DNA of 48,243 nucleotides, from assembly GCA_903877125.1 (NCBI GenBank), contig CAIRCM010000068.1, forward strand, positions 1-48,243, written 5' to 3'. Below, piece by piece: positions 852 to 41,633 of the stretch. The notes under the pieces are model-generated. The model was not told where the DNA came from. It was given only the letters and a program-made list of their open reading frames with translations, and did not search any database. Position 1 is the first letter of the stretch. Each line of letters begins with the position of its first letter. Source of the stretch: an uncultured Acetobacteraceae bacterium (GTDB taxonomy: Bacteria > Pseudomonadota > Alphaproteobacteria > Acetobacterales > Acetobacteraceae). The translations under genes and the position numbers were made by a program.

Positions 852-1665
852 ATGGCGTCGACGGAACCGAGCGAACTGGGATGAGCGGGTTCCGATTCAT
901 CTGAACGCGCCGGCGGTTTACAACCTGCAACCCCTGCGCGACGGAACCGCGCGGCTTGGACCGATTGCCGAGACGGTTCTTGGGCCGGTCGGCGGGTTGA
1001 AAATTCTGCATCTTCAGTGCCATTTCGGCCTGGACGGTCTGGCGCTCGCTCGGCAGGGCGCCCGTGTGACCGGCGTGGATTTCTCCCAACCCGCCATCGA
1101 TGCAGCCCGAGCGCTGGCCGCGGAATGCGGGTTGGATGCCCGGTTTCTGGTTTCCGATGTTTACGAAACCGCGGCGGTGCTGCCGGAACCGGCGTCGTTC
1201 GACCGGGTTTTCGTCAGTTGGGGGGCGTTGATCTGGCTGCCGGACATGGCAGCTTGGGCTCGGGTGGTCGCACACTTCCTCAAGCCCGGCGGGTATCTGG
1301 CCCTGGCGGAGGCCCACCCTGCCCCGTATGTCTTTGACTCCGCGACAAAAACATCCGACGGCATGCCGGGCTGGTTCCACCCCTATCTCGCCCGCACGCC
1401 GCTTATCGAGGATAGGACCGACGATTATGCGGACCCTGGGGCACGGCTGACCAACACGCGCACGCATGAATGGGTGCATCCCCTCAGCGATATCCTGACG
1501 GGGCTGATCGATGCCGGCCTGCGCCTCGACCGGTTCGAGGAGCACGACACCGTGGCGTGGCAAATGTTCGACTGTCTGGTACGTACCGATACCGGCGGCT
1601 ATCGCTGGCCGGACAAGCCGTGGCTGCCGCTTTCGTATTCGCTGCGGGCGTCCAAGCCGGCGTGA
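838..1665 (+). CDS. Class I SAM-dependent methyltransferase
   Basis: Predicted soluble methyltransferase of 275 residues with a Rossmann-type AdoMet-binding domain. Motif I is degenerate: ILHLQCHFGLDGLALA replaces the common E/DxGxGxG and begins near residue 50, followed by the acidic strand end VTGVDFSQPAI. LKPGGYLALAEAHP is the usual post-motif III strand. The same HLQCHFG form occurs in a group of small-molecule methyltransferases annotated only as class I. The start lies inside the 3' end of mazG, so the two are probably translationally coupled. Substrate unknown. The CoA-transferase downstream begins 57 bases later with its own ribosome binding site. Confidence 0.85.
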   Translation: MAEPEWRRRNRANWDERVPIHLNAPAVYNLQPLRDGTARLGPIAETVLGPVGGLKILHLQCHFGLDGLALARQGARVTGVDFSQPAIDAARALAAECGLDARFLVSDVYETAAVLPEPASFDRVFVSWGALIWLPDMAAWARVVAHFLKPGGYLALAEAHPAPYVFDSATKTSDGMPGWFHPYLARTPLIEDRTDDYADPGARLTNTRTHEWVHPLSDILTGLIDAGLRLDRFEEHDTVAWQMFDCLVRTDTGGYRWPDKPWLPLSYSLRASKPA

Positions 1666-1722
1666 TCTCGACGGTCGCGGCAAACCGTGCTCAAAATCGT
1701 GCGACTTCAAGGAGTAATCAAA

Positions 1723-2895
1723 ATGACTGCTGGCCCCCTCGCCCGCTTCAAAGTGATCGATCTGACCCGCGTGCGCGCCGGTCCCACCTGCGTGCGGCAG
1801 TTGGCCGATTGGGGCGCCGATGTCATCAAGATCGAATCACCCGAGGGTGACGCCGGCCTGGGCGGCGAACGCCACGGCCCGGATTTCCAGAACCTGCACC
1901 GCAACAAGCGCAGCCTGACGCTCAACCTGAAGGCGCCGGAGGGTTTGGCGATCTTCAAGCAGCTCGCGGCGAAGGCCGATGTGGTGGTGGAGAACTACCG
2001 CCCGGACGTGAAGTTCCGGCTGGGCGTGGATTACGAGAGCTTGAAGGCGATCAATCCCCGGCTCGTCTACGCGTCGATTTCCGGCTTCGGACAGGACGGT
2101 CCCTATCTCACCCGCCCCGGTTTCGACCAGATCGCGCAGGGCATGGGCGGACTGATGTCGATCACCGGCCTGCCCGGCCAAGGGCCGGTCCGCGTGGGCA
2201 TCCCGGTCGCCGACCTCACCGCCGGCATCTTTGCCGCGATGGGCGTGCTGGTTGCGCTGCTGGAACGCGAGACCTCGGGCCAGGGCCAATGGGTGCAGTC
2301 GTCGCTGCTGGGCGCGCAGATCTCGATGCTGGATTTCCAGGCCGCGCGCTGGACCATCGGGCATGAGGTGCCGGAGCAAGCGGGCAACAACCACCCCACC
2401 AGCATTCCGACCGGCGTGTTTCAGACCAAGGACGGCTACATCAACATCGCCGCTGCCGGCAACGACATCTATCGCCGTTGCTGCGAGGCTCTCGGCCGCC
2501 CCGAGCTTGCCACCGACCCACGATACAGCACTGGCAAGCTGCGGTCCGACAACCGCGACGCGCTGAACGCGGAGATCGAGGCGATCACGCGCGACAAGAC
2601 CTCGGCGGAATGGATCGAAGCGCTGAACAAAGGCGGCGTGCCCTGCGGGCCGATCTACAAGATGAACGAGGTTTTCGATGATCCGCAGGTCAAGCACCTG
2701 AACATCACCCGGAAAGTGCATCATGCGGCGCTGGGCGATGTGGAGGTGATCGGGCAGCCGATCGAACTCAGCCGGACGCCCTGGTCGGTGCGGAGCGCGA
2801 CGCCGGAGGCTGGGGAGCATACGGATGCCGTACTGGCGGAGTTGGGGTACTCGGCGGACGATATCGCGGGGCTGAAGGCGAAGAAGGTCGTCTAA
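1723..2895 (+). CDS. Class III CoA-transferase (CaiB/BaiF family)
   Basis: Predicted to move CoA between carboxylic acids through an enzyme-bound aspartyl-CoA thioester. The start at 1723 is chosen because AAGGAG sits nine bases upstream and the family-typical N terminus (GPLARFKVIDLTRVRAGP) follows at once; an in-frame GTG at 1687 lacks this support. The product is 390 residues, the normal length. The catalytic Asp lies in RPGFDQIAQGMGGLM (about residue 135). VENYRPDVKFRLGVDY and GQGQWVQSSLLGAQ are further family blocks. The acyl donor and acceptor cannot be read from sequence. It may be co-transcribed with mazG and the methyltransferase. Confidence 0.92.
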   Translation: MTAGPLARFKVIDLTRVRAGPTCVRQLADWGADVIKIESPEGDAGLGGERHGPDFQNLHRNKRSLTLNLKAPEGLAIFKQLAAKADVVVENYRPDVKFRLGVDYESLKAINPRLVYASISGFGQDGPYLTRPGFDQIAQGMGGLMSITGLPGQGPVRVGIPVADLTAGIFAAMGVLVALLERETSGQGQWVQSSLLGAQISMLDFQAARWTIGHEVPEQAGNNHPTSIPTGVFQTKDGYINIAAAGNDIYRRCCEALGRPELATDPRYSTGKLRSDNRDALNAEIEAITRDKTSAEWIEALNKGGVPCGPIYKMNEVFDDPQVKHLNITRKVHHAALGDVEVIGQPIELSRTPWSVRSATPEAGEHTDAVLAELGYSADDIAGLKAKKVV

Positions 2896-2939
2896 CCGAG
2901 GCATGGGTAACGGCGGGCTGGGCTGGAAGGAATTCGCGC

Positions 2940-4427
2940 GTGAACGACGCCCAGGCTTCCAGTCCGTCTGCTGAAGGAACCGGGTCGCGCTTGCGTCGTT
3001 GGTGGTCCGCGCAAGCAGATCGCGCGACCGACACCGCGCCCGGTGCGGCCGCGGTGTTTTCCAGGAATCAGCGCATTCTGTTGCTGATCGGCTTTGCCCT
3101 CGTTCTGATCCTGCGGGTGCCTGGCGCCTGGTGGCATGGCCGTTTTTTGTACGAGGAAGGCTCGATCTTCATGGCCTTCGCCGGGCACCGGCCGGCGGGC
3201 GAGGCCCTTTGGCGGTCCTTCGCCGGTTACCTCAATCTGGGTGCCAACAGCACCACCCTCGCAATGGTGGCATTGATCCGGGCGGGCGTGCTCCCGCTTG
3301 GCCAGGCACCGCGTTTCACCATGACGATCGCGATGTTGTTTCAGATCGTGCCGGCCATTCTGATCCTAACCGCGAGAGGCCGCTGGCTGGCAAACCGACG
3401 GGCGGTGCTGGGCTGCCTGCTGATCGTGGCGATCAGCCCGTTCACGGAGGAAGTATTTGCCAACGTACTGCACATCCAGTTTCATCTCGCGCTCGCGTCG
3501 GCGTTGATCCTGGCGCTGGACATACCGGACTCCCGTCTCACCCGTGCCGCCTATTGCGCGCCGCTGCTGCTCGCACCGTTGTGCGGCCCGGGGGCGATTG
3601 TCATCCTGCCGCTGTTCGCGCTGCGCACGCTGATCGAACGGGATCGCGCCCGGCTGATTCAGACCGGGGCCCTGGCCTTGGGCACGGCGGTGCAGATGCT
3701 GCTGTTTTTTACCCCGAACCCGCTGCGCGGGCATTTACTCGATCCCGCCACGCTTTCGAATGTGCTGTTCGTGCGGCTGGTCGCCCTGCCCTACGCGTCG
3801 GTGTTTGTTGCATTGCCGGTGGGGGAGAGCTTTTACCACCTGTATCTCACCGGCGGGCCGGGCTGGTGGCTGGTGACGGTGCTGTCGCTGTCCTGCTTTG
3901 GTTGGCTGCTGCATACGGCTTTGCGGGGCGGTTTCGATGCGGCGACGTGGCTGGTCCTGTGCGGTTTTTTGCTTGCTTCGGTGTCCTTCGACGCGGGTAT
4001 GCTGGCGATGCACCCGAGCCGATGGTTCAGCCCGGGTTCTGCCGGGCGCTACAATTTTCTGCCGCTTGTGCTGATCGGCATGGGGTTTGTCGCGCTGGCA
4101 ATGCGCAACGATCGTCGTTACGTCAAAATCTGCCGTGGTCTCGTCGTGCTGATGCTGGCGACCGGTGCGGTGACTTTTCCGTACCCGATCCCCGACATGA
4201 ACGTCGGTCCGGACTGGCAGTCCGAGGTCGCTGTATGGCAGAAGAACCATGACCATCTGCTGGCGACCTGGCCGCCGCATTTGTGGGTCGATCTCTCCGA
4301 TCGGGATCGCCCGTGCTCACCGCCAAGCCTGGACAGGATGGCGGCCAGCGAACCAACCTATTGCGAGGGCAACTGGCTGGCGCTGGTGGTCGGAGACAGC
4401 AAACTTCCGGCGCGGCATATGCGATGA
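2940..4427 (+). CDS. Polytopic membrane protein, GT-C-like candidate (copy 1)
   Basis: Integral membrane protein of 495 residues with roughly ten hydrophobic helices between residues 42 and 410, a basic cytoplasmic-looking N terminus (RLRRWW) and a soluble C-terminal tail of about 75 residues with two conserved Cys (RPCSPPS and YCEGNW). The first large loop carries an acidic YEEGSIF motif after helix 1, the place where GT-C glycosyltransferases keep catalytic acidic residues. GT-C assignment is inference only. The GTG start is supported by GGAAGGA upstream. A close paralogue follows 25 bases later, with similar leader sequence. A polyprenyl-phosphate-type family-2 glycosyltransferase lies convergently downstream, which would suit a lipid-linked sugar role. 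No specific family recognised. Confidence 0.8.
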   Translation: MNDAQASSPSAEGTGSRLRRWWSAQADRATDTAPGAAAVFSRNQRILLLIGFALVLILRVPGAWWHGRFLYEEGSIFMAFAGHRPAGEALWRSFAGYLNLGANSTTLAMVALIRAGVLPLGQAPRFTMTIAMLFQIVPAILILTARGRWLANRRAVLGCLLIVAISPFTEEVFANVLHIQFHLALASALILALDIPDSRLTRAAYCAPLLLAPLCGPGAIVILPLFALRTLIERDRARLIQTGALALGTAVQMLLFFTPNPLRGHLLDPATLSNVLFVRLVALPYASVFVALPVGESFYHLYLTGGPGWWLVTVLSLSCFGWLLHTALRGGFDAATWLVLCGFLLASVSFDAGMLAMHPSRWFSPGSAGRYNFLPLVLIGMGFVALAMRNDRRYVKICRGLVVLMLATGAVTFPYPIPDMNVGPDWQSEVAVWQKNHDHLLATWPPHLWVDLSDRDRPCSPPSLDRMAASEPTYCEGNWLALVVGDSKLPARHMR

Positions 4428-31445: not shown

Positions 31446-31546
31446 ACATATACTGCTTCGGCACCAATGGCGCTGCAACCGTCGCCAGCCCACAGTTTTC
31501 GCTTGCTCTACTCGGCGTCCGCATTAAACCGGCCGAGCGGCCATGA
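31442..31546 (+). CDS. 34-residue small ORF coupled on both sides
   Basis: Starts with an ATG overlapping the fdxA stop (ATGA at 31442-31445) and ends with a TGA overlapping the ATG of the FAD oxidoreductase (ATGA at 31543-31546). Product begins [16 protein letters not shown] and ends [14 protein letters not shown], with one Cys and a hydrophobic centre. The double overlap makes translational relay from fdxA to the oxidoreductase plausible. It may encode a real small protein or only serve coupling. No family recognised. Confidence 0.55.
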
Positions 31547-33678
31547 CGCAAGGAAGCCAGAGCGTGCAACGACCCATCGAAGTCGCGGTAATCGGTGGGG
31601 GGTGCGCCGGCATGACCGCGGCGCTTGAACTGTCCCATCCCAAGCACGGGGGGCGGTTCACCGTCACCGTCTACCAGGAAGGCTGGCGCCTCGGCGGCAA
31701 GGGCGCCTCCGGCCGTGGCCCCTCCGGCAGGGTCGAGGAACACGGGTTGCATGTTTGGCTGGGCTTTTACGACAACGCCTTCCGGATGATGCGCGCCTGT
31801 TACGATGAACTGGCTGCGACCGGCAGTTCTCCTTACGGCGACTGGCGGGAGGCGTTCGTGCCGCAATCCGTCATGGGCCTGTTCGCGACCACCGAACAGC
31901 AGGGTTGGCAGAAATGGGTGGGACATTTCCCGCCCCGGTCCGGTCTGCCGGGCGATCCGCAAACGCCGGGGGAGATGCACAGCCTGCCGCGCTACATCGC
32001 CAAGGCGCTGCGGCTGCTGCGCGCGCTGCTCATCGAAACCGATGTGCATCGGCACGGCGGCACACATCGGCCGGCCGACGATCTGCGCGATCCGAACAAA
32101 CTGCTCGCGGCCGCCCAGACGCTTCTGGGGCGCGGCGTCTTCACCACCGCGGCTGCCCTCGCGGAAGCCATCGGCCTGCTGGGCACCGCCATCGGCATGC
32201 TCGCCGCCCCGTTCGACGCCGCGATCCTGCAACTCGCGGGCAAAGTGGCGGCCGGGCTGCGGCTGTGGCTGGAAACGAACGTCCTGGCCGAGGATCGCCA
32301 CCGCCATGTGTGGGAAATCATCGATCTCGTGCTCGCCATCCTCGTCGGCACCGTCCGTTTCGGCCTGCTGACGAACCCGCAAGGTCTCGACGCGATCGAG
32401 GAATACGAATGCCGCGACTGGCTGCGCCTGAACGGTGCGTCGGAACGGTCGCTGAAATCGCCCTTCATCAACGGTCTTTACGATCTCGCGCTGGCTTATG
32501 AAGACGGGGACCGTGACAAGCCCCGCCTTGCCGCCGGGCAGGCGTTGCGTGGTGCGTTACGCATGTTCTTCGGCTATCGCGGAGCACTGTACTGGCGCAT
32601 GCGATCCGGCATGGGCGACGTCGTCTTCGCCCCGATTTACGAGGTTCTGCGCCGCCGCGGCGTGCGCTTCCGTTTCTTCCACCGGCTGACCAATGTCGGC
32701 CTGCCCGGGAAGGGGCCGGCGGACCACGTCGCCAGTCTGACGTTCGATGTCCAGGCCGAAACGACCGATGGGCGCGACTACGTCCCGCTGCGGGATGTCC
32801 AGGGCCGCCCCTGCTGGCCGTCGCGTCCGGACTGGGCGCAACTGACGGGTGGCGACACCGGGCACGACCTCGAATCCCACTGGGACCGCCACTGCATCCG
32901 CACTGAAACCCTGCACGTCACGCGCGACTTCGACTTCGTCGTCCTCGCTGTCAGCGTCGGCGCCATTCCGCATGTCGGCCGGGAAATTGTCGCCCACGAC
33001 CCGCGCTGGCGACGGATGACCGAGAACGTGAAGACCGTTGCCTCCCAGGCATTCCAACTCTGGCTGACCGAGGACCTCGCGCGGCTCGGCTGGCCAAGCC
33101 CGCCGGATATCGTGTCCGCGTTCGTCAAGCCGTTCGATACCTGGTGCGACATGGCGCATGTCGTGCCCGAGGAAGAATGGGCCACCCCGCCCGCGACGTC
33201 GGTTTATTTTTGCGGCGTCCTGCCCGATCCCGCCGAATTGCCGGCCGACAGCGATGCGCAGTACCCCGAACGCCGGCGGCTGGAGGTTCGCGATCGCGCC
33301 GCCGGTTTCCTCGCCGAGACAGCGCGGCATCTGTGGCCGAATGCCTATGACGCCGGCGGAAAGTTCCGCTGGGATCTGCTGGCGGATGCGACCGGTCAGA
33401 CGCCTCCCCCCAGTGGACCGGAACGCTTCGCGACCCAATACTGGCGTGCCAACGTCAACCCATCGGATCGCTACGTGCTCAACGTGCCGGGATCGTCGCG
33501 TCATCGTATTTCCCCGCTGGACAACACATACGACAATCTGACCATTGCCGGAGACTGGACGAGTTGCGGTTTTAACGAAGGCTGTGTGGAGGCCGCGGTG
33601 ATGTCCGGGCTGCTCGCCGCCCATGCCTTGTCGGGACTGCCCGCGTTGAAGGACATCGACGGCTACGACCATCCCTGA
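31543..33678 (+). CDS. FAD-dependent oxidoreductase, carotenoid desaturase/amine oxidase superfamily
   Basis: A 711-residue flavoprotein. The N-terminal dinucleotide site is VAVIGGGCAGMTAALEL, followed by VYQEGWRLGGKGASGRG and EEHGLHVWLGFYDNAFRMM; the C-terminal FAD block is NLTIAGDWTSCGFNEGCVEAAVMSGLLAAHAL. This end-to-end layout is that of phytoene-desaturase-like and related large oxidoreductases. A long helical insertion occupies about residues 165-300. Large uncharacterised proteins of this type sit near isoprenoid genes in other bacteria (recalled, not searched). A GTG at 31564 with AAGGA upstream is an alternative start. A polyprenyl synthase follows two genes later, so the substrate may be an isoprenoid; this is inference. 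Confidence 0.85.
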   Translation: MTQGSQSVQRPIEVAVIGGGCAGMTAALELSHPKHGGRFTVTVYQEGWRLGGKGASGRGPSGRVEEHGLHVWLGFYDNAFRMMRACYDELAATGSSPYGDWREAFVPQSVMGLFATTEQQGWQKWVGHFPPRSGLPGDPQTPGEMHSLPRYIAKALRLLRALLIETDVHRHGGTHRPADDLRDPNKLLAAAQTLLGRGVFTTAAALAEAIGLLGTAIGMLAAPFDAAILQLAGKVAAGLRLWLETNVLAEDRHRHVWEIIDLVLAILVGTVRFGLLTNPQGLDAIEEYECRDWLRLNGASERSLKSPFINGLYDLALAYEDGDRDKPRLAAGQALRGALRMFFGYRGALYWRMRSGMGDVVFAPIYEVLRRRGVRFRFFHRLTNVGLPGKGPADHVASLTFDVQAETTDGRDYVPLRDVQGRPCWPSRPDWAQLTGGDTGHDLESHWDRHCIRTETLHVTRDFDFVVLAVSVGAIPHVGREIVAHDPRWRRMTENVKTVASQAFQLWLTEDLARLGWPSPPDIVSAFVKPFDTWCDMAHVVPEEEWATPPATSVYFCGVLPDPAELPADSDAQYPERRRLEVRDRAAGFLAETARHLWPNAYDAGGKFRWDLLADATGQTPPPSGPERFATQYWRANVNPSDRYVLNVPGSSRHRISPLDNTYDNLTIAGDWTSCGFNEGCVEAAVMSGLLAAHALSGLPALKDIDGYDHP

Positions 33679-33716: not shown

Positions 33717-34403
33717 ATGACGACAGGTGAAAGAATGAGCCGCCCGGCCCCGGAACGCGAGGCGCCGAACCGCGGTGTTCCTTCGGACCCCGCGGTGCAT
33801 GAGGTCGTGGCCCACGCTGTTCGCGTTGGCTACGAGGTGATCGGCGACAATATCCGCCAGGGCAAGACCGCCGCCGACCGCATCACCGCGGGCGACTACG
33901 CGGTCAAGGATCTGCCGGACGAGTTGACCCAGCTCAGCCTGCGTCTTCTGCAACTGACCCGCGACATGAGCGCGACGACCTTCGATTTGATCGGTGCGGT
34001 GCTGCGCGACCCGAATCTGCAAAATGCGATCAAGGGGCTGGCGCCGTCGCTCACGCCGGCTGTGTCAGGCAAGCCAGCCGCCGCCCCGCCAGCCGCCGCC
34101 CCGCCAACCGCCGCCGTGACGCTGACCTGCGTGGTCCGCGGCAATCCGAAGGCCTTCGGCATGCCCAGCATGCTGCAACACCCCGAACAGGCGGCCGCGC
34201 TGTCGATCGCCGGGCTCTTTTCGCCGAACCCGGCACTGCCGTCGCTGAAGGGGATCAAGTTCGTCCCCGCCCCCGGCGGCCAGGGTATCGCCGCCATCGT
34301 CGATGTGCCGGACAGCCAGCCCGCCGGCAACTACAGCGGCGTGATCTGCGATAGCGCGACGCACCAGACCCTTGGCACCCTGACGGTCCAGGTCATGCCG
34401 TGA
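33717..34403 (+). CDS. Hypothetical two-domain protein (helical N terminus, Ala/Pro linker, beta C terminus)
   Basis: Unrecognised 228-residue protein. Residues about 20-115 are amphipathic helices (VVAHAVRVGYEVIGDNIRQG, TQLSLRLLQLTRDMSATTFD) that look phasin-like, suggesting binding to lipid, polymer or membrane surfaces. A tandem PAAAP linker at about 119-133 leads to a beta-rich C-terminal half (AAVTLTCVVRG, GIAAIVDVPDSQPAGNYSGV) reminiscent of an Ig-like or binding sandwich. It has no signal peptide. AAGGACC precedes the ATG. Its stop overlaps the GTG of the polyprenyl synthase (GTGA), so production of the two is coupled. It may organise the pathway on a membrane or granule; that is speculation. 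Confidence 0.75.
   Translation: MTTGERMSRPAPEREAPNRGVPSDPAVHEVVAHAVRVGYEVIGDNIRQGKTAADRITAGDYAVKDLPDELTQLSLRLLQLTRDMSATTFDLIGAVLRDPNLQNAIKGLAPSLTPAVSGKPAAAPPAAAPPTAAVTLTCVVRGNPKAFGMPSMLQHPEQAAALSIAGLFSPNPALPSLKGIKFVPAPGGQGIAAIVDVPDSQPAGNYSGVICDSATHQTLGTLTVQVMP
34073..34115 (+). repeat. 15-base tandem repeat encoding an Ala/Pro linker
   Basis: About 2.9 copies of GCCAGCCGCCGCCCC, the third with one change, in frame within the hypothetical two-domain gene. It encodes PAAAP repeats. Such repeats can change copy number by slippage. Confidence 0.8.
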
Positions 34404-35458
34404 CACGCGACTGGCCCGCCCTGGCAACGCGTCCGGACACGCCAAGCATCGTACCGAAGCTGCTGCGGGAGTACGGCGGCGCGACACGCCGCGTGGTCGA
34501 ACACTACCTCGCGACCGACCGGCCGGCGCCTTATCTGCACGATTTGCTCATCGACTACCCGCGCCGCGGCGGCAAGATGATGCGTCCCTGCATCTGCATC
34601 GCCAATGCCCGAGCGTTCGGCGCCAGCATGGAGGACGCGCTGCAGAGCGCCGCGGCGATCGAGATCCTTCACAATGCCCTGCTCATCCACGACGACATCC
34701 AGGATGAGAGCGAGGTCCGCCGCGGCCTGCCGACCTTGCATGAACAGCATGGCGTGCCGCTGGCGATCAACGCCGGCGACGCCATGCTCCTCCTCGCCAT
34801 GCGGCCCTTACTGTCAAACATCCGCACACTCGGTCCCCACGTCGCGGCCCGCATTCTGGAAGAGACCATGGCCATGGCCCGCGAAACCGCCGAAGGCCAG
34901 GCGTTGGAACTGGGTTGGCGCGACACCAACCGCACCGACGTCACGGAAGCGGACTACCTCACGATGGTGTTGAAAAAGACCGCCTGGATGGCGACGATCT
35001 GGCCGGCCCAGGTTGGTCTTCTGATCGGTTCCAACGGCATGGCCGATCCCACCAGCGTCGTGCGCTTCGGCTTCTTCCTCGGCGCTGCCTTCCAGATCCA
35101 GGACGATCTGCTGAATTTGATCGCCGACCGGTCGTACGGCAAGGAGTTGAACGGTGACCTGTTCGAGGCCAAACGCACGCTGATGCTCATCCACGCGCGG
35201 GAGACCTGCACCGAGGACGAACGCACGACGCTCGACGCGTTCCTGAAGCTGCAACGGCGCGACCGGTCGCAGGACAAGGTCCGTTGGCTGGCCGATCTGA
35301 TGGATCGCCAGGGATCGATCGAATACGCCCGCACGGTGGCGGGTGCCCTGGCCGGGGCGGCGGAGCATGAATTCGGCCGCGCCTACGGACATCTGCCGCC
35401 ATCCCAGGACAAGGATTTCATTGCCGGCCTGATCCCTTGGGTCTTCGAACGGACCTGA
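34400..35458 (+). CDS. Polyprenyl diphosphate synthase (isoprenyl synthase family)
   Basis: Prenyl chain elongation enzyme of 352 residues. It has RRGGKMMRPC (diphosphate binding), first aspartate motif DDIQD at 98-102 and a second motif reading QDDLLN at 234-239, so the last Asp of the classical second DDxxD is Asn. Positions -5 and -4 before the first motif are Ala and Leu rather than aromatic, which favours products of C20 or longer over FPP; that is inference from known chain-length rules. The GTG start overlaps the preceding stop. It lies in the fdxA cluster beside the FAD oxidoreductase, and is probably dedicated to that pathway rather than a housekeeping synthase. Confidence 0.92.
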   Translation: MTRDWPALATRPDTPSIVPKLLREYGGATRRVVEHYLATDRPAPYLHDLLIDYPRRGGKMMRPCICIANARAFGASMEDALQSAAAIEILHNALLIHDDIQDESEVRRGLPTLHEQHGVPLAINAGDAMLLLAMRPLLSNIRTLGPHVAARILEETMAMARETAEGQALELGWRDTNRTDVTEADYLTMVLKKTAWMATIWPAQVGLLIGSNGMADPTSVVRFGFFLGAAFQIQDDLLNLIADRSYGKELNGDLFEAKRTLMLIHARETCTEDERTTLDAFLKLQRRDRSQDKVRWLADLMDRQGSIEYARTVAGALAGAAEHEFGRAYGHLPPSQDKDFIAGLIPWVFERT

Positions 35459-35488: not shown

Positions 35489-36544
35489 ATGGCCGACTTC
35501 ATCGAATCCTTCGACCCACAGGAACTGCCGCCGCCCTTTCGCTTCCCCGGGGTCAGCATGACCACCTTCGCGATCGACCTCGGCCTCGAACACGGTCTGC
35601 CCGGCCTCAACACCTGGTGCGACACTTACCTCAACATCGACCCCGATGCGCGCTACCGTCCGCTGACCCCGGTCGGCTACCTCTGCATCCTGGATTACCC
35701 GCGCCTTTACTGCGACGCACCGGGCTACGGCGACTGGGGCTATGTGCCGCAAAAGGAGGTGTTTTTCACCTTCCCCGCCGTTCGGCTTGGCCGAGCAGTG
35801 GGCAATATCTTTCTGCCGACCGACCTGTCCTGGGCGATGCCGTTTATCGCGGTGAACAACGCGACCTCGGCCATCACCGGCCGTACCGTGCTGGGGTTTC
35901 AGAAGATTTTCGGCGCCATCGACCTCCCGGAAAAACCGGACAAGTCGTTCGAAGCCACCGTCTCCCTGCCGGTTTTTCAGACCACTGGGCATGACGTCGA
36001 GCAGAAATACGAACCTGTCGTCAGCGTCTGGACCGGCCCACCGAACCCTGCAATCCAGGCCCTGGACGGCACATTCCCCTGGAACCTGCTGGGTCACAGC
36101 CAGAGCATGGATTATATCGAGAACACAGCCATGCACCTGCTGGAGGATCTCGTCCCCGGCCTGCTGGAGGTCATCAACCTCAAGCAGATGCGCGGCGGCC
36201 AGAATCCCAAGACGGCGGTCTATCAGGCATTGGTGCAAAGCCGCATGAGTTTCGCGAACATGACCGCGCCGGTGTTCTACGAGAACCCGACCTTCATGTT
36301 CCATGCCGATGCCAGCATGACCTGCGGCATCAACGGCGCCGAACTGGCCAAGATCGGCGGGAAGAAGTTGCCGGCGCTCGCGGCGTTTTCCATGACCCTC
36401 GACATGACTCTGGACCACGTCGTCGATGCCTATGTCAGCCCGCAAGGGGCGGCGGCGGAGCCTGACGGACTTTGCGGCACCTGGCACGGGTTCTGGAGGC
36501 CCTACTTCAAGGATCTGGGGCGCCTGCTGTTCCCCTTCGCCTGA
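35489..36544 (+). CDS. Acetoacetate decarboxylase-like superfamily protein
   Basis: A 351-residue protein, longer than classical acetoacetate decarboxylase (about 245). MPFIAVNNATSAITGRTVLGFQKIFG at residues 117-142 resembles the decarboxylase core, where an active-site Lys pair follows GRE(x)nPKK. Here Lys139 matches the Schiff-base Lys but the second Lys is Ile, from recalled alignment. MSFANMTAPVFYENPTFMFH is a later conserved-looking block. No signal peptide. AGGAG precedes the ATG by 12 bases. Related proteins catalyse aldol or dehydration chemistry instead of decarboxylation, so a biosynthetic role in this cluster is possible. Superfamily call is moderate, function unknown. Confidence 0.65.
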   Translation: MADFIESFDPQELPPPFRFPGVSMTTFAIDLGLEHGLPGLNTWCDTYLNIDPDARYRPLTPVGYLCILDYPRLYCDAPGYGDWGYVPQKEVFFTFPAVRLGRAVGNIFLPTDLSWAMPFIAVNNATSAITGRTVLGFQKIFGAIDLPEKPDKSFEATVSLPVFQTTGHDVEQKYEPVVSVWTGPPNPAIQALDGTFPWNLLGHSQSMDYIENTAMHLLEDLVPGLLEVINLKQMRGGQNPKTAVYQALVQSRMSFANMTAPVFYENPTFMFHADASMTCGINGAELAKIGGKKLPALAAFSMTLDMTLDHVVDAYVSPQGAAAEPDGLCGTWHGFWRPYFKDLGRLLFPFA

Positions 36545-36812: not shown

Positions 36813-37571
36813 ATGAAAATGCCCGACGTATCCGCCGAAGGCAGACGGGTGCTCTCCGGAAACCGGCAGGTCATCGTCGGTTTGGGGGTGCTTCTCCTGG
36901 CGCTCCCCCTATGGTGGGGCACGGACCATTTCGTCCCCAGCCTGACAGCGAAACGCGTCGTGGCAACCGCCATATGCTATACCTTGCATGACGCCAGCGA
37001 GGCTCAACTCCGGGGGGCTTTGATCGCGGCGCGGACGCAGGCCGCCGCGGTGGAGGCTACATTCGAACCCGGCGGGAGCCCCGACGGTCATGGCGCGACC
37101 TACTACCTCTCCGTCACCGCCGACACCCCGGAAAAGGCCCGCTCGGATCTCGCGGCTTTCACGGACGCAATCAAGATTGCCTTCCCGTTGGCCGAACGCA
37201 ATCTCCTGGTGTCGACGAACAACTCGACTGTCCCCGAGTCCAATGAACTGGGCCGGCGTGTGACCTTCGGGCTCAGAACCACGGTAATCCTGATGATACT
37301 GGGAGGTCAGTTTCTGACCGTCATCGGTGGCCACCGGGCAGGGTTCGGCCGCGCCGGTCTTCTCGGCACCTTGGCTTGGCCGGTCGTGGTCTTCATCGCG
37401 GCCAACGGTGATTCCGGCGGCACCAGACGCCGCGCGGGCCATGGCCAGCCGTTCGAACTTCCGGACTGGCATTTTGTCGTTCTGTTTCTTGCCCTGACGC
37501 TGGTATCAGTGATTTTGAGCCTCTGGCTTACACGCCGTAAACGACCCGCGGACGGCAGGCCCAGATCTTGA
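36813..37571 (+). CDS. Hypothetical membrane protein (252 residues)
   Basis: Inner-membrane protein with one N-terminal helix (VIVGLGVLLLALPLWWG, about residues 20-36), a soluble, probably periplasmic domain of about 115 residues (ASEAQLRGALIAARTQAAAV, TPEKARSDLAAFTDAIKIAF), and three C-terminal helices (about 157-175, 180-198 and 222-240) ending in a basic tail. This layout slightly recalls chain-length or stress-sensing membrane proteins, but no family is recognised. A second ATG lies two codons in. It follows the isoprenoid-like cluster after 268 bases and may be independent of it. Confidence 0.7.
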   Translation: MKMPDVSAEGRRVLSGNRQVIVGLGVLLLALPLWWGTDHFVPSLTAKRVVATAICYTLHDASEAQLRGALIAARTQAAAVEATFEPGGSPDGHGATYYLSVTADTPEKARSDLAAFTDAIKIAFPLAERNLLVSTNNSTVPESNELGRRVTFGLRTTVILMILGGQFLTVIGGHRAGFGRAGLLGTLAWPVVVFIAANGDSGGTRRRAGHGQPFELPDWHFVVLFLALTLVSVILSLWLTRRKRPADGRPRS

Positions 37572-37934: not shown

Positions 37935-40900
37935 TTGGCCAGTTTTTGCGCGCAATGCGGACAGGAATGCGCGGACAGCGCGACACGGTGCGACGCCTGC
38001 GGATCGATGTCGCCCGCCGCGCCCACACATGCGGAGCGGCGGCAGGTCACCGCCCTGTCCTTCGCGATTGTCGATTTCGTCGATCAGACCTTACGGCTTT
38101 CCCCTGGCGATCAACTGCGGGTCAAGGACACCTACCTCGCGGCCTGCGACGACATCGTTTCCGAATTCGGCGGCCACGTCATGCAGGACATGGCGGAGGG
38201 CATGGTCGCCTATTTCGGCTACCCCCGCGCCAATGAGGACGATCCGGCCAACGCCGTGCGGGCGGCGATCAAGTTGCGCGATACCATCGGCCATCTCGAT
38301 CTGCCGACCGGGGTCAAACTGCGCTGTCGAATCGGCATCGCCACCGGCCTGATCGTTGTCAGCGAACTGGTCCGCCGGCGGGAAGGGCGTGGCGGCGGGC
38401 TGGTCGGCGGCGCACCCAACCTCGCAGCCCGGCTACAGGCCGCGGCGCTGCCGGACACCGTCGTGGTCGCCGATGCCACACGTCGTATCGCCGAGGGTTC
38501 GTTCGTCTACCGCGACCTCGGTCGGATCGCCCTCAAGGGTTTCCCCGACCCGTTGCCCGCCTTCGAGGCGGTCGAGGCACCGCCCATCGCCAGTCGCTTT
38601 CTCGCCCGCACGCATGGCAACGCAACGCCGATGGTCGGGCGCGGCGGGGAGTTGAACCGGCTGCGCGAACTGTGGGATGCGGCGCGGCAAGGCCATGGGA
38701 AGGCCGTTCTCCTGAAGGGCGAACCAGGGATCGGCAAATCGCGCCTGGTCGATGAACTGCGCCGCACGGTCGCCGATACCCCGCATGTGCAGTTCGCCTG
38801 GTTCTGCGGGCCAAACACCACCGACAGCGCGCTCCACCCGGTGATCGAGCAGATCGCCCGCACGGCTCGGTTCGAACCCGGCGATACGCCGGAGACGCGC
38901 CGCGCCAACCTGCAAAGAATATTCGTTGGCTTCGGCACCACCGATCCCCTGGGCCAGGCCGCCATCGCCGATCTGATGGGCCTGCCGCCCGCGTCGGATA
39001 ACCCGATCGCCGCGCTGACGCCCGACCGCCGCAAGGCGGTGACCCTCGATACCATGCTGAGCATGATGCGCTTCATCGCCAGCACACGCCCCGCCTTGTT
39101 TGTCCTGGAAGACCTGCATTGGTGCGATTCCACGACGCTCGAACTGCTGGAACACGCCCTTGCCTGCACCGCTGACCATCCTTGGATGATCCTGTGCAGC
39201 ACCCGCCCCGATTACGCGGGCCCCTGGCCGGAAACCGACGATATTTCGACCATCGAACTGGGCCGGCTGGATCGCGGCGCCGCGGAACAGATTTGCCGGC
39301 TGCTGGGCACGGATGGGCTGCTGCCAGCCGAATCCGTCCGCCAAATTGTCGAGCGCTGCGACGGGATTCCCCTGTTCGTGGAGGAAATGACGAAATCCGT
39401 CCTCGAAGCCACCGCCGACGGTTCCGCTGTCGCCCCAATTCCCGCTTCGGTGCGGGATTCGCTCATGGCGCGTCTCGATCGCCTCGGCAGCGCCAAGCGG
39501 GTCGCCTGCCTGGGCGCGGCGATCGGCCGGCGGTTCGGCTATGGCCTGCTCGCCGCCGTCGCCGCCATGCCCGAGGCGACGTTGCGGGAGGATTTGCGCG
39601 AACTCTCACTGTCCGGTCTCGTCGAACGTCATGGCGTCCCGCCCGCCAGCTCGTATCTGTTCAAACATGCCCTGATCCGCGACGCGGCCTACGATTCGCT
39701 GCTGCGGTCGGAACGCGAACCCCTGCACGGGCAGATCGCGGCCGAGTTGCGGGACCGTTTTCCGGAAACACGCGACAGCGAACCGGAACTGATCGCATAC
39801 CATTTGACGGAAAGCGGCGCCTTCGACGAGGCGATCCCGCTCTGGGCCAGTGCCGGCCAGCGTGCGTCCTCCCGCGCCGCGCATGTGGAAGCGGTTGGCC
39901 ACCTGCAAACCGCGCTAAAGCTGCTGCGCGAACAGCCGAACGATGCCCAGCGGGTCGGTCTGGAATTGCAGCTGCTGCTGGGCCTCGCCGTGAGTCTGTC
40001 GGCGTCGCGCGGCTATACCAATCCCGATGTCGGCCGGGTGCTGGCCGAGGCCCGCGGCATCTGCGACGCGCTGGGCAACGTCTCCGGCCTGTTCGCCGCC
40101 CTGCGCGGCATCTGCAGTTTCGCCATCGTGGCCAGCGACATCGCAGTTGCCGAGACAACAGCAAGGCATTGCGTCGCCATTGCCGACGAGACCGGCGACG
40201 TCGAGCACCGGATCGAAAGCGACGCGACCCTCGGCTATATTCTCTACGTCAAAGGCGAGCTCGCGACCGCCCGCTTTCACCTTGAGCGTGCGGCCCGACT
40301 CTACACCGAAAACGATGGTATCGGCCGCGTTTTCCCCTCTCCGCAGGATCCGCTGATCGTCGCTTTGTCATCCCTGCTGCACGTCTTGCATGCGATGGAT
40401 GAGACGCAGGCCGCCGACCGCGTCAACGACACGCTGACCGCACATGCCCCAGCGCTGGGGCGGACATTCGATCTGGTGTGGGCGCTGACGTTCCAGTCCC
40501 ATTACCAGCAACAGATCGGCCGCCCCGGTCCCGCCATGCGGCTGCGAGACGAAATGATCCGCGTTTGCTCGGAAAACGGGTACGAGCACTGGCGGATCGT
40601 CGGCGGCGTGTTCCGCGGGTTCGGGCTGGGCTATCTGGGCAAGCCAGCGGAAGGGCTCGAACAGGCCGAGGCCGGGTTGATCGAACTCGACCGCATCGGT
40701 GATCTGCACTGGCGCGCGCTCTATCTCGGCGAAATCGCCCGGCTGAATGCCGAACTTGGCGACATGCTGTCGGCCGCGGCGACGATCGACGCGGCGATCG
40801 CGCGGGCGCGCGAGTCCGGAGAGCACTATTTCCTCTCGCCGTTGTATCGCCGCAAGGCCGAGGTTCTGGTTCGGATGCCCACCCCGGATCCTGCCGCGAT

Positions 40901-41009
40901 CGGCGCCGTGCGCGCCGAAGCGATTGCCATCGCCGAAGCCCAGGGGGCCCGCCGCTTCGCGCGGGAGGCCGCGGTGGCGCATGACTCGCACTTGCCCGCG
41001 ATCGGATGA
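37935..41009 (+). CDS. Zinc-ribbon, class III cyclase-like (degenerate), AAA ATPase and TPR-like signalling protein
   Basis: A 1024-residue multidomain protein. A zinc ribbon (C5, C8, C19, C22: CAQC and CDAC) is followed by a class III nucleotide cyclase domain (about 33-215), then an AAA-type NTPase (about 230-520; Walker A KGEPGIGKSR, Walker B ALFVLEDLHWCD), then helical TPR-like repeats to the end. In the cyclase domain both metal Asp positions are altered (Ala44 and Glu88), while Asn162 and Arg166 (GGAPNLAARLQ) remain, so it is unlikely to be active alone. The TTG start has GGGAG upstream and gives the ribbon immediately. A small cyclase gene follows 54 bases later. Likely a signal-responsive regulator. 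Confidence 0.85.
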   Translation: MASFCAQCGQECADSATRCDACGSMSPAAPTHAERRQVTALSFAIVDFVDQTLRLSPGDQLRVKDTYLAACDDIVSEFGGHVMQDMAEGMVAYFGYPRANEDDPANAVRAAIKLRDTIGHLDLPTGVKLRCRIGIATGLIVVSELVRRREGRGGGLVGGAPNLAARLQAAALPDTVVVADATRRIAEGSFVYRDLGRIALKGFPDPLPAFEAVEAPPIASRFLARTHGNATPMVGRGGELNRLRELWDAARQGHGKAVLLKGEPGIGKSRLVDELRRTVADTPHVQFAWFCGPNTTDSALHPVIEQIARTARFEPGDTPETRRANLQRIFVGFGTTDPLGQAAIADLMGLPPASDNPIAALTPDRRKAVTLDTMLSMMRFIASTRPALFVLEDLHWCDSTTLELLEHALACTADHPWMILCSTRPDYAGPWPETDDISTIELGRLDRGAAEQICRLLGTDGLLPAESVRQIVERCDGIPLFVEEMTKSVLEATADGSAVAPIPASVRDSLMARLDRLGSAKRVACLGAAIGRRFGYGLLAAVAAMPEATLREDLRELSLSGLVERHGVPPASSYLFKHALIRDAAYDSLLRSEREPLHGQIAAELRDRFPETRDSEPELIAYHLTESGAFDEAIPLWASAGQRASSRAAHVEAVGHLQTALKLLREQPNDAQRVGLELQLLLGLAVSLSASRGYTNPDVGRVLAEARGICDALGNVSGLFAALRGICSFAIVASDIAVAETTARHCVAIADETGDVEHRIESDATLGYILYVKGELATARFHLERAARLYTENDGIGRVFPSPQDPLIVALSSLLHVLHAMDETQAADRVNDTLTAHAPALGRTFDLVWALTFQSHYQQQIGRPGPAMRLRDEMIRVCSENGYEHWRIVGGVFRGFGLGYLGKPAEGLEQAEAGLIELDRIGDLHWRALYLGEIARLNAELGDMLSAAATIDAAIARARESGEHYFLSPLYRRKAEVLVRMPTPDPAAIGAVRAEAIAIAEAQGARRFAREAAVAHDSHLPAIG

Positions 41010-41063
41010 TAATATCGGGAATCGATTGGCAATTCAGGCTGGGATGGAGCTGGTCCGATATCC

Positions 41064-41633
41064 ATGTCGACACCGCCCGCTGAACGACGCGCCTACCTGA
41101 CCGAACGGCGGCAGGTAACGGCGCTGTTCTGCGATCTCGTGGATTCGGTGACGCTGACCGTGCGGCTCGACCCCGAGGACCTGAATCGGGTCTTCGACCT
41201 GTATCTGGCGGCCTGCGACAACATCGTCAGCGCCCATGGCGGTGAGGTGATGCAATATATGGGGGATGGGGTACTGGCTTATTTCGGCTATGCCCGTCCG
41301 GCCGATACCGACGCCGCCAATGCCGTTCGCGCCGCCAGGCAACTGCGCGATGCGTTGGGGCGGCTGGCCTTGCCGGCGGACGTCACGCTGCGCAGCCGGA
41401 TCGGCGTGGTCAGCAGTTGGGTGGTGGTCGGCGACGTCAAAGCCCATGGCAACGGCATCCTGGGGGAGACACCGCATCTCGCGTCGCGGCTTCAGGCCTT
41501 TGGCAAGCCAGATTCGGTGATCGTGTGCGAGGCGACGCGGCGGCTTGCCGGCGATGCTTTCACGTTCCGGCACATGGGCATGGTTCAGCCCAGCGGCTTT
41601 CCCGATCCGGTGATGGCATTCGAGGCACTTTAG
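41064..41633 (+). CDS. Stand-alone class III nucleotide cyclase domain protein
   Basis: A 189-residue protein that is just a cyclase domain, strongly alignable with the domain of the preceding gene (shared ERRQVTAL, AACD, AYFGY, ANAVRAA). It has both metal-binding Asp residues, Asp24 (ALFCDLVDS) and Asp68 (YMGDGVLAYFGY), but the transition-state Asn is His138 (GETPHLASRLQ); Arg142 is kept. Class III cyclases work as dimers with shared sites, so the defect here is the mirror image of that in its neighbour. It lacks AAA and TPR parts and any membrane segment. No strong ribosome binding site; GGAG lies rather far upstream. Product (cAMP or cGMP) unknown. Confidence 0.85.
   Translation: MSTPPAERRAYLTERRQVTALFCDLVDSVTLTVRLDPEDLNRVFDLYLAACDNIVSAHGGEVMQYMGDGVLAYFGYARPADTDAANAVRAARQLRDALGRLALPADVTLRSRIGVVSSWVVVGDVKAHGNGILGETPHLASRLQAFGKPDSVIVCEATRRLAGDAFTFRHMGMVQPSGFPDPVMAFEAL

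Follow-up and report, generated by a model that had tools for sequence, protein, structure and literature searches.

A 48,243-nucleotide stretch of DNA from an uncultured Acetobacteraceae bacterium (contig CAIRCM010000068.1; "the window" below) carries two adjacent class III cyclase homologues that have lost their catalytic residues in a complementary manner. No single chain has a full catalytic set. The large protein (37935..41009, 1024 residues) lacks both metal-binding aspartates, and the small protein (41064..41633, 189 residues) lacks the ribose-orienting asparagine and the lysine that contacts the triphosphate. Judging from the sequences, the pair is probably an obligate heterodimer with one live site, similar to the C1 and C2 domains of mammalian adenylyl cyclases. 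All features of the pair described here are on the + strand.

The residue positions were set by HMMER alignment to the solved class III cyclases 2W01 (Cya2) and 3R5G (CyaB). According to the available passage of PMC2576301, one chain of a class III dimer gives the pair of metal-binding Asp residues (here D1 and D2) and the β4 Arg, and the other chain gives the Asn, the Arg and the β7-β8 Lys. These six catalytic roles were transferred from that passage by alignment position. In the alignment of the large protein with 2W01, Ala44 (38064..38066) and Glu88 (38196..38198) stand opposite the metal Asp pair, so that D1 is lost and D2 is changed, and Asn162 (38418..38420) and Arg166 (38430..38432) stand opposite the ribose-orienting Asn and the transition-state Arg. 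For the small protein, the alignments with both 2W01 and 3R5G put Asp24 (41133..41135) and Asp68 (41265..41267) opposite the metal Asp pair and His138 (41475..41477) opposite the Asn. An earlier note, made from the letters of the window, had pointed out these exchanges and the presence of the Arg in both chains (Arg166/Arg142), and the alignments agree with it in full. A third complementary swap concerns the β7-β8 triphosphate Lys, which is kept in the large protein as Lys201 (38535..38537) and replaced in the small one by Ser177 (41592..41594). The β4 Arg is kept in the small protein as Arg112 (41397..41399); the roles of Lys201 and Arg112 are those given in the same passage of PMC2576301. 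Hence, D24, D68 and R112 of the small protein together with N162, R166 and K201 of the large one are canonical at 6/6 positions. The mirror site, composed of A, E, R and H, R, S, is canonical at 2/6.

The same arrangement exists in a second species of the genus (G203), in which the pair is found in the same gene order with an identity of 71% for the large protein and 65-67%, over several alignments, for the small one. The locus (L061, JANXTL010000293.1) belongs to the metagenome-assembled genome (MAG) Acetobacteraceae bacterium isolate 338R_metabat_61. In neither species is one of the two frames interrupted. The small D, D, R and large N, R, K of G203 are likewise 6/6 canonical, and its mirror site (A, D, R with H, R, T) is 3/6 canonical. 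D1 of the G203 large protein is Ala as in the window, whereas its D2 is still Asp; the loss of the metal Asp residues was therefore stepwise. In the matches listed for the genus (33 genomes), the window and G203 are the only two to have a free small cyclase next to a large one.

To place these losses in context, we used a background composed of the best matches to the window proteins in 299, 33, 385 and 397 sampled genomes (overlapping sets) and of a pattern-limited scan. At most two candidates per genome were scored in the 299-genome survey and at most eight, at stricter E-values, in the sets of 385 and 397, and the counts of other cyclase pairs are lower bounds. Stretches of DNA were fetched for a subset of the listed matches: 80 (74 for matches without a locus and six for matches with one) and a further 10. 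Cyclase domains of more than 130 residues at an E-value of 1e-8 or better were kept (216), and 191 were left after removal of near-duplicates. As these include the pair's four, 187 domains form the background used for column conservation; 154 of them are nearly complete and served for the rank and random-pair comparisons, and 183 have letters at all six catalytic positions and served for the six-residue counts. "Background" denotes domains outside the pair, which are not proven to be unpaired, and the flanks are short in many cases.

A FastTree of the 191 unique domains unites the four domains of the pair in one clade (support 0.966), in which the two large domains group at 0.993 and the two small ones at 0.961. 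The tree thus places the cyclase-domain duplication from which the pair arose before the split of the two species. The sister of this clade is a domain from an uncultured Rhizobiales MAG (L062; support 0.85), which has D, D, N, R and K intact, and the next one on the tree comes from a Caulobacteraceae MAG (L063). In the window lineage the branches of both copies are longer (0.28 and 0.44) than in G203 (0.12 and 0.22).

The metal-binding aspartates are rarely lost in this family: D1 is kept in 183/191 domains and D2 in 186/191. The Asn is missing in 27/191 (25 of these are outside the pair, and 21 of the 25 keep both Asp), so the replacement of Asn by His was not accepted as strong evidence alone. 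All six residues are canonical in 113/183 background domains, at least one is missing in 70/183, and a metal Asp is lost in seven. Six of these seven also lack the Asn, Arg or Lys, with either Lys or Arg counted as kept. Single imperfections are common, whereas the loss of metal binding with the remaining residues kept is not. The only other case of the large protein's loss pattern among the 183 background domains is the seventh, L218 (genome G253, L230:8677-11931), in which D1 is Gly and the Asn, Arg and Lys are kept. It is located directly before an intact full-length cyclase-AAA-TPR gene on the same strand (L230:12144-15461), as a tandem, and its losses also lean to the metal half of the domain (6/18 vs 3/23 columns). 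This tandem may represent an independent, earlier stage of the same process. The earlier note had held that large-type homologues with the same losses and without a partner would speak against a heterodimer; none was found among the 183 background domains.

Five of the six doubly-lost domains (L117, L152, L204, L215 and L216) have lost D1, and the sixth is L063. The five share an N-terminal Trans_reg_C and/or BTAD domain followed by a cyclase domain without key residues and AAA_16, a recurrent dead-cyclase architecture that resembles a transcription factor. We did not regard them as counter-examples to the pattern of the pair, as they carry a DNA-binding domain and have also lost the Asn or Arg. 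No second cyclase gene was seen near them on the available stretches, of which several are short or run up to the edge of a contig. In a further genome (G209; L128/L233:313-1050 and 1001-3529) a cyclase open reading frame (ORF) precedes an AAA-TPR one. It was considered as a second case of the pair and rejected: because its catalytic residues are intact and the ORFs overlap, it reads as a split or frameshifted single gene. Another tandem, in G259 (L232), lies so close to the contig end that its first copy is truncated, and a second, weaker cyclase match is present on the same locus in L079, L087, L104, L114, L168 and L187.

The window pair shows a reciprocal partition of conservation: the small protein is better conserved in the metal half of the cyclase domain and the large one in the other half. 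With a threshold of at least 80% conservation among the 187 background domains, there are 41 columns, 18 within the metal half and 23 beyond it. At these columns the large protein has 8 losses in the metal half and 2 in the other, and the small protein has 0 and 9 (Fisher p = 0.0007). The corresponding values for thresholds of 70, 85 and 90% are 0.0026, 0.0014 and 0.0079, and p is 0.007 if the catalytic columns are excluded. The complementarity of the window pair is reached by none of 11,781 pairs of background domains, and that of the G203 pair by 1.9%. A similar picture emerges from the intact sister L062 if one counts the columns in which one paralogue only retains the sister's residue. For the window these are 0 large-only and 15 small-only columns in the metal half, and 29 large-only and 9 small-only columns in the other half (Fisher p = 2e-7 across halves; 7e-5 in the same test against L063). 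For the columns on which both species agree, the large-only counts are 0 and 11 and the small-only counts 8 and 4 (p = 0.0013).

The following mechanism would account for this pattern. The cyclase domain was duplicated in a common ancestor of the two pair-bearing species. The large copy would then have lost metal binding, D1 before the species split and D2 in the window lineage only, and the small copy would have lost the Asn and the triphosphate Lys. As a result, one of the two pseudo-symmetric interface sites would stay complete and the other would be dead. In the live site, the metals would be bound via D24 and D68 of the small protein, the triphosphate would be contacted by R112 of the small protein and K201 of the large one, and the large protein would supply Asn162 and Arg166. 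Because the one complete site consists of the small D/D/R and the large N/R/K, the small subunit would act as C1 and the cyclase domain of the large protein as C2. Assembly or activity would be gated by the STAND-type AAA_16/TPR portion of the same large protein. The residues, the orthology, the duplication, the half-partition of the window pair and the low substitution-rate ratios given below are observed; the physical dimer, its catalysis, its regulation and its product are inferences.

At the purine-binding positions, the large protein has Gln84 and Gly159, and the small one has Gln64 and Glu135. The statement of the earlier note that atypical Gln and Gly occur at these positions is correct for the large protein, but the second position of the small one is Glu. 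The purine pocket of the proposed live site would contain Q84 and G159 in the window and Q and E in G203. Gly at the second position is rare (4/191 domains). Gln at the position of the purine Lys was considered as a sign of an unusual product and discarded, as it is shared by the sister L062 and found in 29/191 domains.

We also attempted to model the pair as single-chain folds of a read-through product, in which the stops between the genes, which are in the same frame, were passed over and exactly 1200 residues from A33 were folded. Both models match the class III cyclases CyaC, Cya2 and CyaB in Foldseek searches, and the top structural match of both is 6mfv, a STAND protein with TPR. The window model has a predicted local distance difference test score (pLDDT) of 81.7 and a predicted TM-score (pTM) of 0.66. 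Its TM-score (TMq) is 0.27 to AC5 and 0.26 to AC9, compared with 0.13-0.14 for single-domain chains and 0.14 for GC-A (9bcs_A), which aligns over an additional long stretch but contains a single cyclase domain. This suggests that both window domains superpose on C1 and C2 together. The G203 model has a pLDDT of 84.6 and a pTM of 0.67, with the last 16 residues of the small protein trimmed.

Several of the results weigh against a heterodimer with one live site. The G203 model is not superposed on AC5 (TMq 0.14), so a dimer-like arrangement came out of the co-folding in one of two models. In both models the root-mean-square deviation over the whole AC5/AC9 alignments is 33-46 Å (33-35 Å for the window); because of this, it is the TM-score alone that speaks for a dimer. 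Furthermore, the small domain is covered by just 3/28 alignment rows in the window fold. The proposal of the earlier note, that the two chains build one complete site, is thus in agreement with the sequence tests (residues, second species, sister duplicates and half-partition), whereas the co-folding is mixed. The pair was found in two species only. The Fisher p-value of the window is 0.067 at the strictest conservation threshold (95%, 12 columns), and the half-partition does not reach significance when G203 is taken by itself. The G203 losses at the 41 columns are 6 and 2 in the large protein and 1 and 4 in the small one (Fisher p = 0.10, with a range of 0.08-0.4 over the thresholds and 0.24 with the catalytic columns excluded). 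The comparison of G203 with L062 (metal and other half: large-only 5 and 14, small-only 10 and 8) has the same direction as in the window and is not significant either (p = 0.10). In addition, the boundary between the halves was placed after the columns had been viewed, and the test was therefore repeated with the best split for each pair. With columns at the 80% threshold, the share of background pairs that reach the value of the window is 0.25% (0-1.8% over four thresholds), and a permutation of the same statistic gives p = 0.0012 (range 0 of 5000 to 0.005). The value of G203 is reached by 4.6-27% of background pairs, and its permutation p of 0.15-0.48 is not significant. Only in the case of the window pair does the repeated test make up for the post hoc choice of boundary. 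The proposed live site also has a non-canonical purine pocket, in which G159 arose within the window lineage, the one with the longer branches. Finally, 37/183 background domains keep both Asp but lack the Asn, Arg or Lys; since imperfect sites are so common, with only 113/183 complete, the small protein could be active by itself.

The atypical purine positions bear on a different explanation, according to which the heterodimer forms but is catalytically dead. It would then regulate the ATPase/TPR protein, either by binding nucleotides or in a purely structural way. Both chains have Gln in place of the purine Lys and the large protein of the window has Gly at the second position, and dead cyclase domains are joined to AAA_16 in the five background proteins with a DNA-binding domain. 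However, the intact sister L062 has the same Gln, as do many other domains, the five DNA-binding proteins have lost the metal Asp and the Asn/Arg within one chain, and both the window and the G203 pairs retain all six residues of the live site. We therefore consider a dead heterodimer unlikely.

It is quite unlikely that the small protein forms an active homodimer of its own, in which His stands for the Asn, and that the large protein uses its cyclase domain only as a pseudo-domain for docking or regulation. The small protein does keep both metal Asp residues and both Arg, and domains without the Asn but with both Asp are frequent outside the pair, as described above. A homodimer, however, needs both halves of the small protein, and its Asn/Lys half is relaxed. 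Between the window and G203, the metal half of the small domain is 85.7% identical with a ratio of nonsynonymous to synonymous substitution rates (dN/dS) of 0.116, whereas the other half is 59.3% identical with a dN/dS of 0.30. The large protein holds its Asn/Arg/Lys half: the identity is 79.5% there (dN/dS 0.157) and 69.8% in the metal half (0.181). Across 1263 background comparisons (55-85% identity), conservation of the metal half exceeds that of the other by 8 points on average (standard deviation 8). The corresponding gap is +26 for the small pair (0.8% tail) and -10 for the large pair (1.9% opposite tail), the tails being descriptive because the comparisons share sequences. When tested per protein, the difference between the halves has p = 0.0002 in the small protein and is not significant in the large one (p = 0.20).

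The dN/dS values, calculated by the Nei-Gojobori method between the window and G203, are well below 1: 0.24 in the small protein and, within the large one, 0.16 (cyclase domain), 0.15 (AAA part) and 0.185 (TPR part). Those of neighbouring genes are 0.025 downstream and 0.19 upstream, and all of them are rough, as dS is about 1 or above. Although both copies have longer branches in the window lineage, where further residues were lost (E88, G159), an ongoing decay of a duplicated cyclase, with a complementary pattern produced by chance, is very unlikely in view of these dN/dS values of 0.16-0.24, a large cyclase domain that is the best conserved part of its protein by identity (76.5% vs 70.7%), frames that are open in both species and the strong half-partition of the window pair.

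The large protein, which has a TTG start and was delimited by its ORF, Pfam matches and the predicted model, consists of a zinc-ribbon-like N terminus, the class III cyclase homology domain, an AAA_16/STAND-type ATPase and TPR, in this order. The Cys cluster of the N terminus (C5, C8, C19 and C22; 37944..38006) matches Zn_Ribbon_1 with 15.8 bits, below the Pfam cut-off of 25, and is gone from the G203 orthologue. The cyclase domain, for which a C2-like role is proposed, spans 38034..38573, and the AAA_16 domain spans 38631..39173 (Pfam E-value 1e-20). The ATPase site has the Walker A sequence GEPGIGKS. A helical region of the TPR type, with approximate limits of 39612..40976, is indicated by weak Pfam matches, by helices in the model and by the similarity to the STAND-TPR protein 6mfv. 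The gene ends with a TGA stop that is directly followed by TAA in the same frame (41007..41012), and 54 bases separate the large stop from the small start. The small protein is a cyclase domain only, with a proposed C1-like role. Both chains match the profile PF00211, the large one with 34.1 bits and the small one with 48.9 bits (cut-off 21.9). PF00211 matches the source genome (5.15 Mb, 231 contigs, 97.9% complete) at four places, the window pair accounting for two of them, and cyclic nucleoside monophosphate-binding domains are matched at six. Scans for promoters, terminators and RNA families gave nothing useful.

Four genes are found upstream of the pair in both species. In the window they encode a 711-residue flavin adenine dinucleotide (FAD) amine-oxidase/HpnE-like flavoprotein (31543-33678), a 228-residue protein (33717-34403), a polyprenyl synthase (34400-35458) and a 351-residue protein (35489-36544). 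A gene for 252 residues (36813-37571), which was not found in G203, stands between these four and the pair in the window. Relatives of three of the four are present beside L063 and of two beside L062, where one is cut by the end of the locus. A relative of the flavoprotein occurs in nine of 234 loci (134 of which are at least 5 kb long), namely in the window, G203, L063, L145, L200, L206, L208, L221 and L233; in the last six it is the only one of the four flanking genes. There are hints here that this line of cyclases is tied to a locus of the isoprenoid type. With regard to a neighbouring effector of the Pycsar kind, gated by a cyclic nucleotide and of the TM or TIR type, Pfam matches were obtained for 3/10 neighbouring frames (polyprenyl synthase, PEP mutase and TRAP permease), and the other seven, including 35489-36544 and 36813-37571, have no Pfam match at an E-value of 0.001.

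Two divergent class III domains are likewise combined in the C1/C2 domains of mammalian transmembrane adenylyl cyclases and in the α/β subunits of soluble guanylyl cyclase. As far as the available parts of PMC8815786 and PMC2576301 go, C1/C2-type cyclases receive the metal Asp residues from one domain and the Asn/Arg/Lys from the other and have one live and one degenerate site. PMC8815786, in the part available, describes the degenerate site of eukaryotic class III heterodimers as regulatory. The pair differs from C1/C2 in that it is encoded by two bacterial genes, with one cyclase-only chain and one chain that carries a STAND-type ATPase/TPR part, in that the duplication took place within this bacterial clade, and in that the heterodimer is a proposed one. 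Chytrid rhodopsin guanylyl cyclases (NeoR/RGC) resemble the proposed pair in being obligate heterodimers from separate genes. The RGC1 and RGC2 cyclase domains, however, retain all cyclization-relevant residues according to the same part of PMC8815786, whereas each chain of the window pair is devoid of some catalytic residues. No bacterial two-gene obligate class III heterodimer was found in the openly available literature, as judged by titles and the openings of abstracts and with most subscription journals outside its range.

Among bacterial proteins, L062 and L063, the nearest domains on the tree, have the same cyclase-AAA_16-TPR architecture and a partly shared neighbourhood, but one cyclase domain was found per locus. 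L062 has the full catalytic set, whereas L063 (L063:1478-4918), in which TIR is fused to cyclase, AAA_16 and TPR, lacks D2 (His) and the Arg (Gln). The large protein also matches about 990 residues of TIGR03903, a TOMM system kinase/cyclase fusion (profile positions 278-1262 of 1267). The score of 492.8 bits is lower than the cut-off of 705.75, the first 277 profile positions are unmatched, and that model is without a small partner. We take these 277 positions to be the kinase part, and no kinase domain is present among the 11 Pfam families listed at E-values up to 1. The actinobacterial cyclase/ATPase/TPR/HTH (helix-turn-helix) proteins are presumably comparable in that the cyclase-only Rv0891c and Rv1359 are located beside genes of the ATPase/TPR type. 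The PADLOC profile for the Pycsar cyclase PycC (PDLC02367) scores 48.7 bits with the small and 23.5 bits with the large protein; it has no cut-off given, and other class III cyclases may match it as well.

A more far-reaching interpretation would be that a bacterium has reinvented the animal C1/C2 arrangement independently as two genes and that the pair is caught part-way, with the dead site now allosteric under a STAND-type ATPase and an unusual cyclic nucleotide tied to the isoprenoid-type neighbourhood. In this joint form we regard it as rather unlikely. In our judgement, the way in which such asymmetry develops out of a homodimer is mostly deduced from much more ancient events. In the present case, the window and G203 represent two steps of asymmetric loss, with the intact sister L062 as an outgroup. 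If the heterodimer with one live site is true, the pair bears on how the one-live-site asymmetry arises from a class III homodimer.

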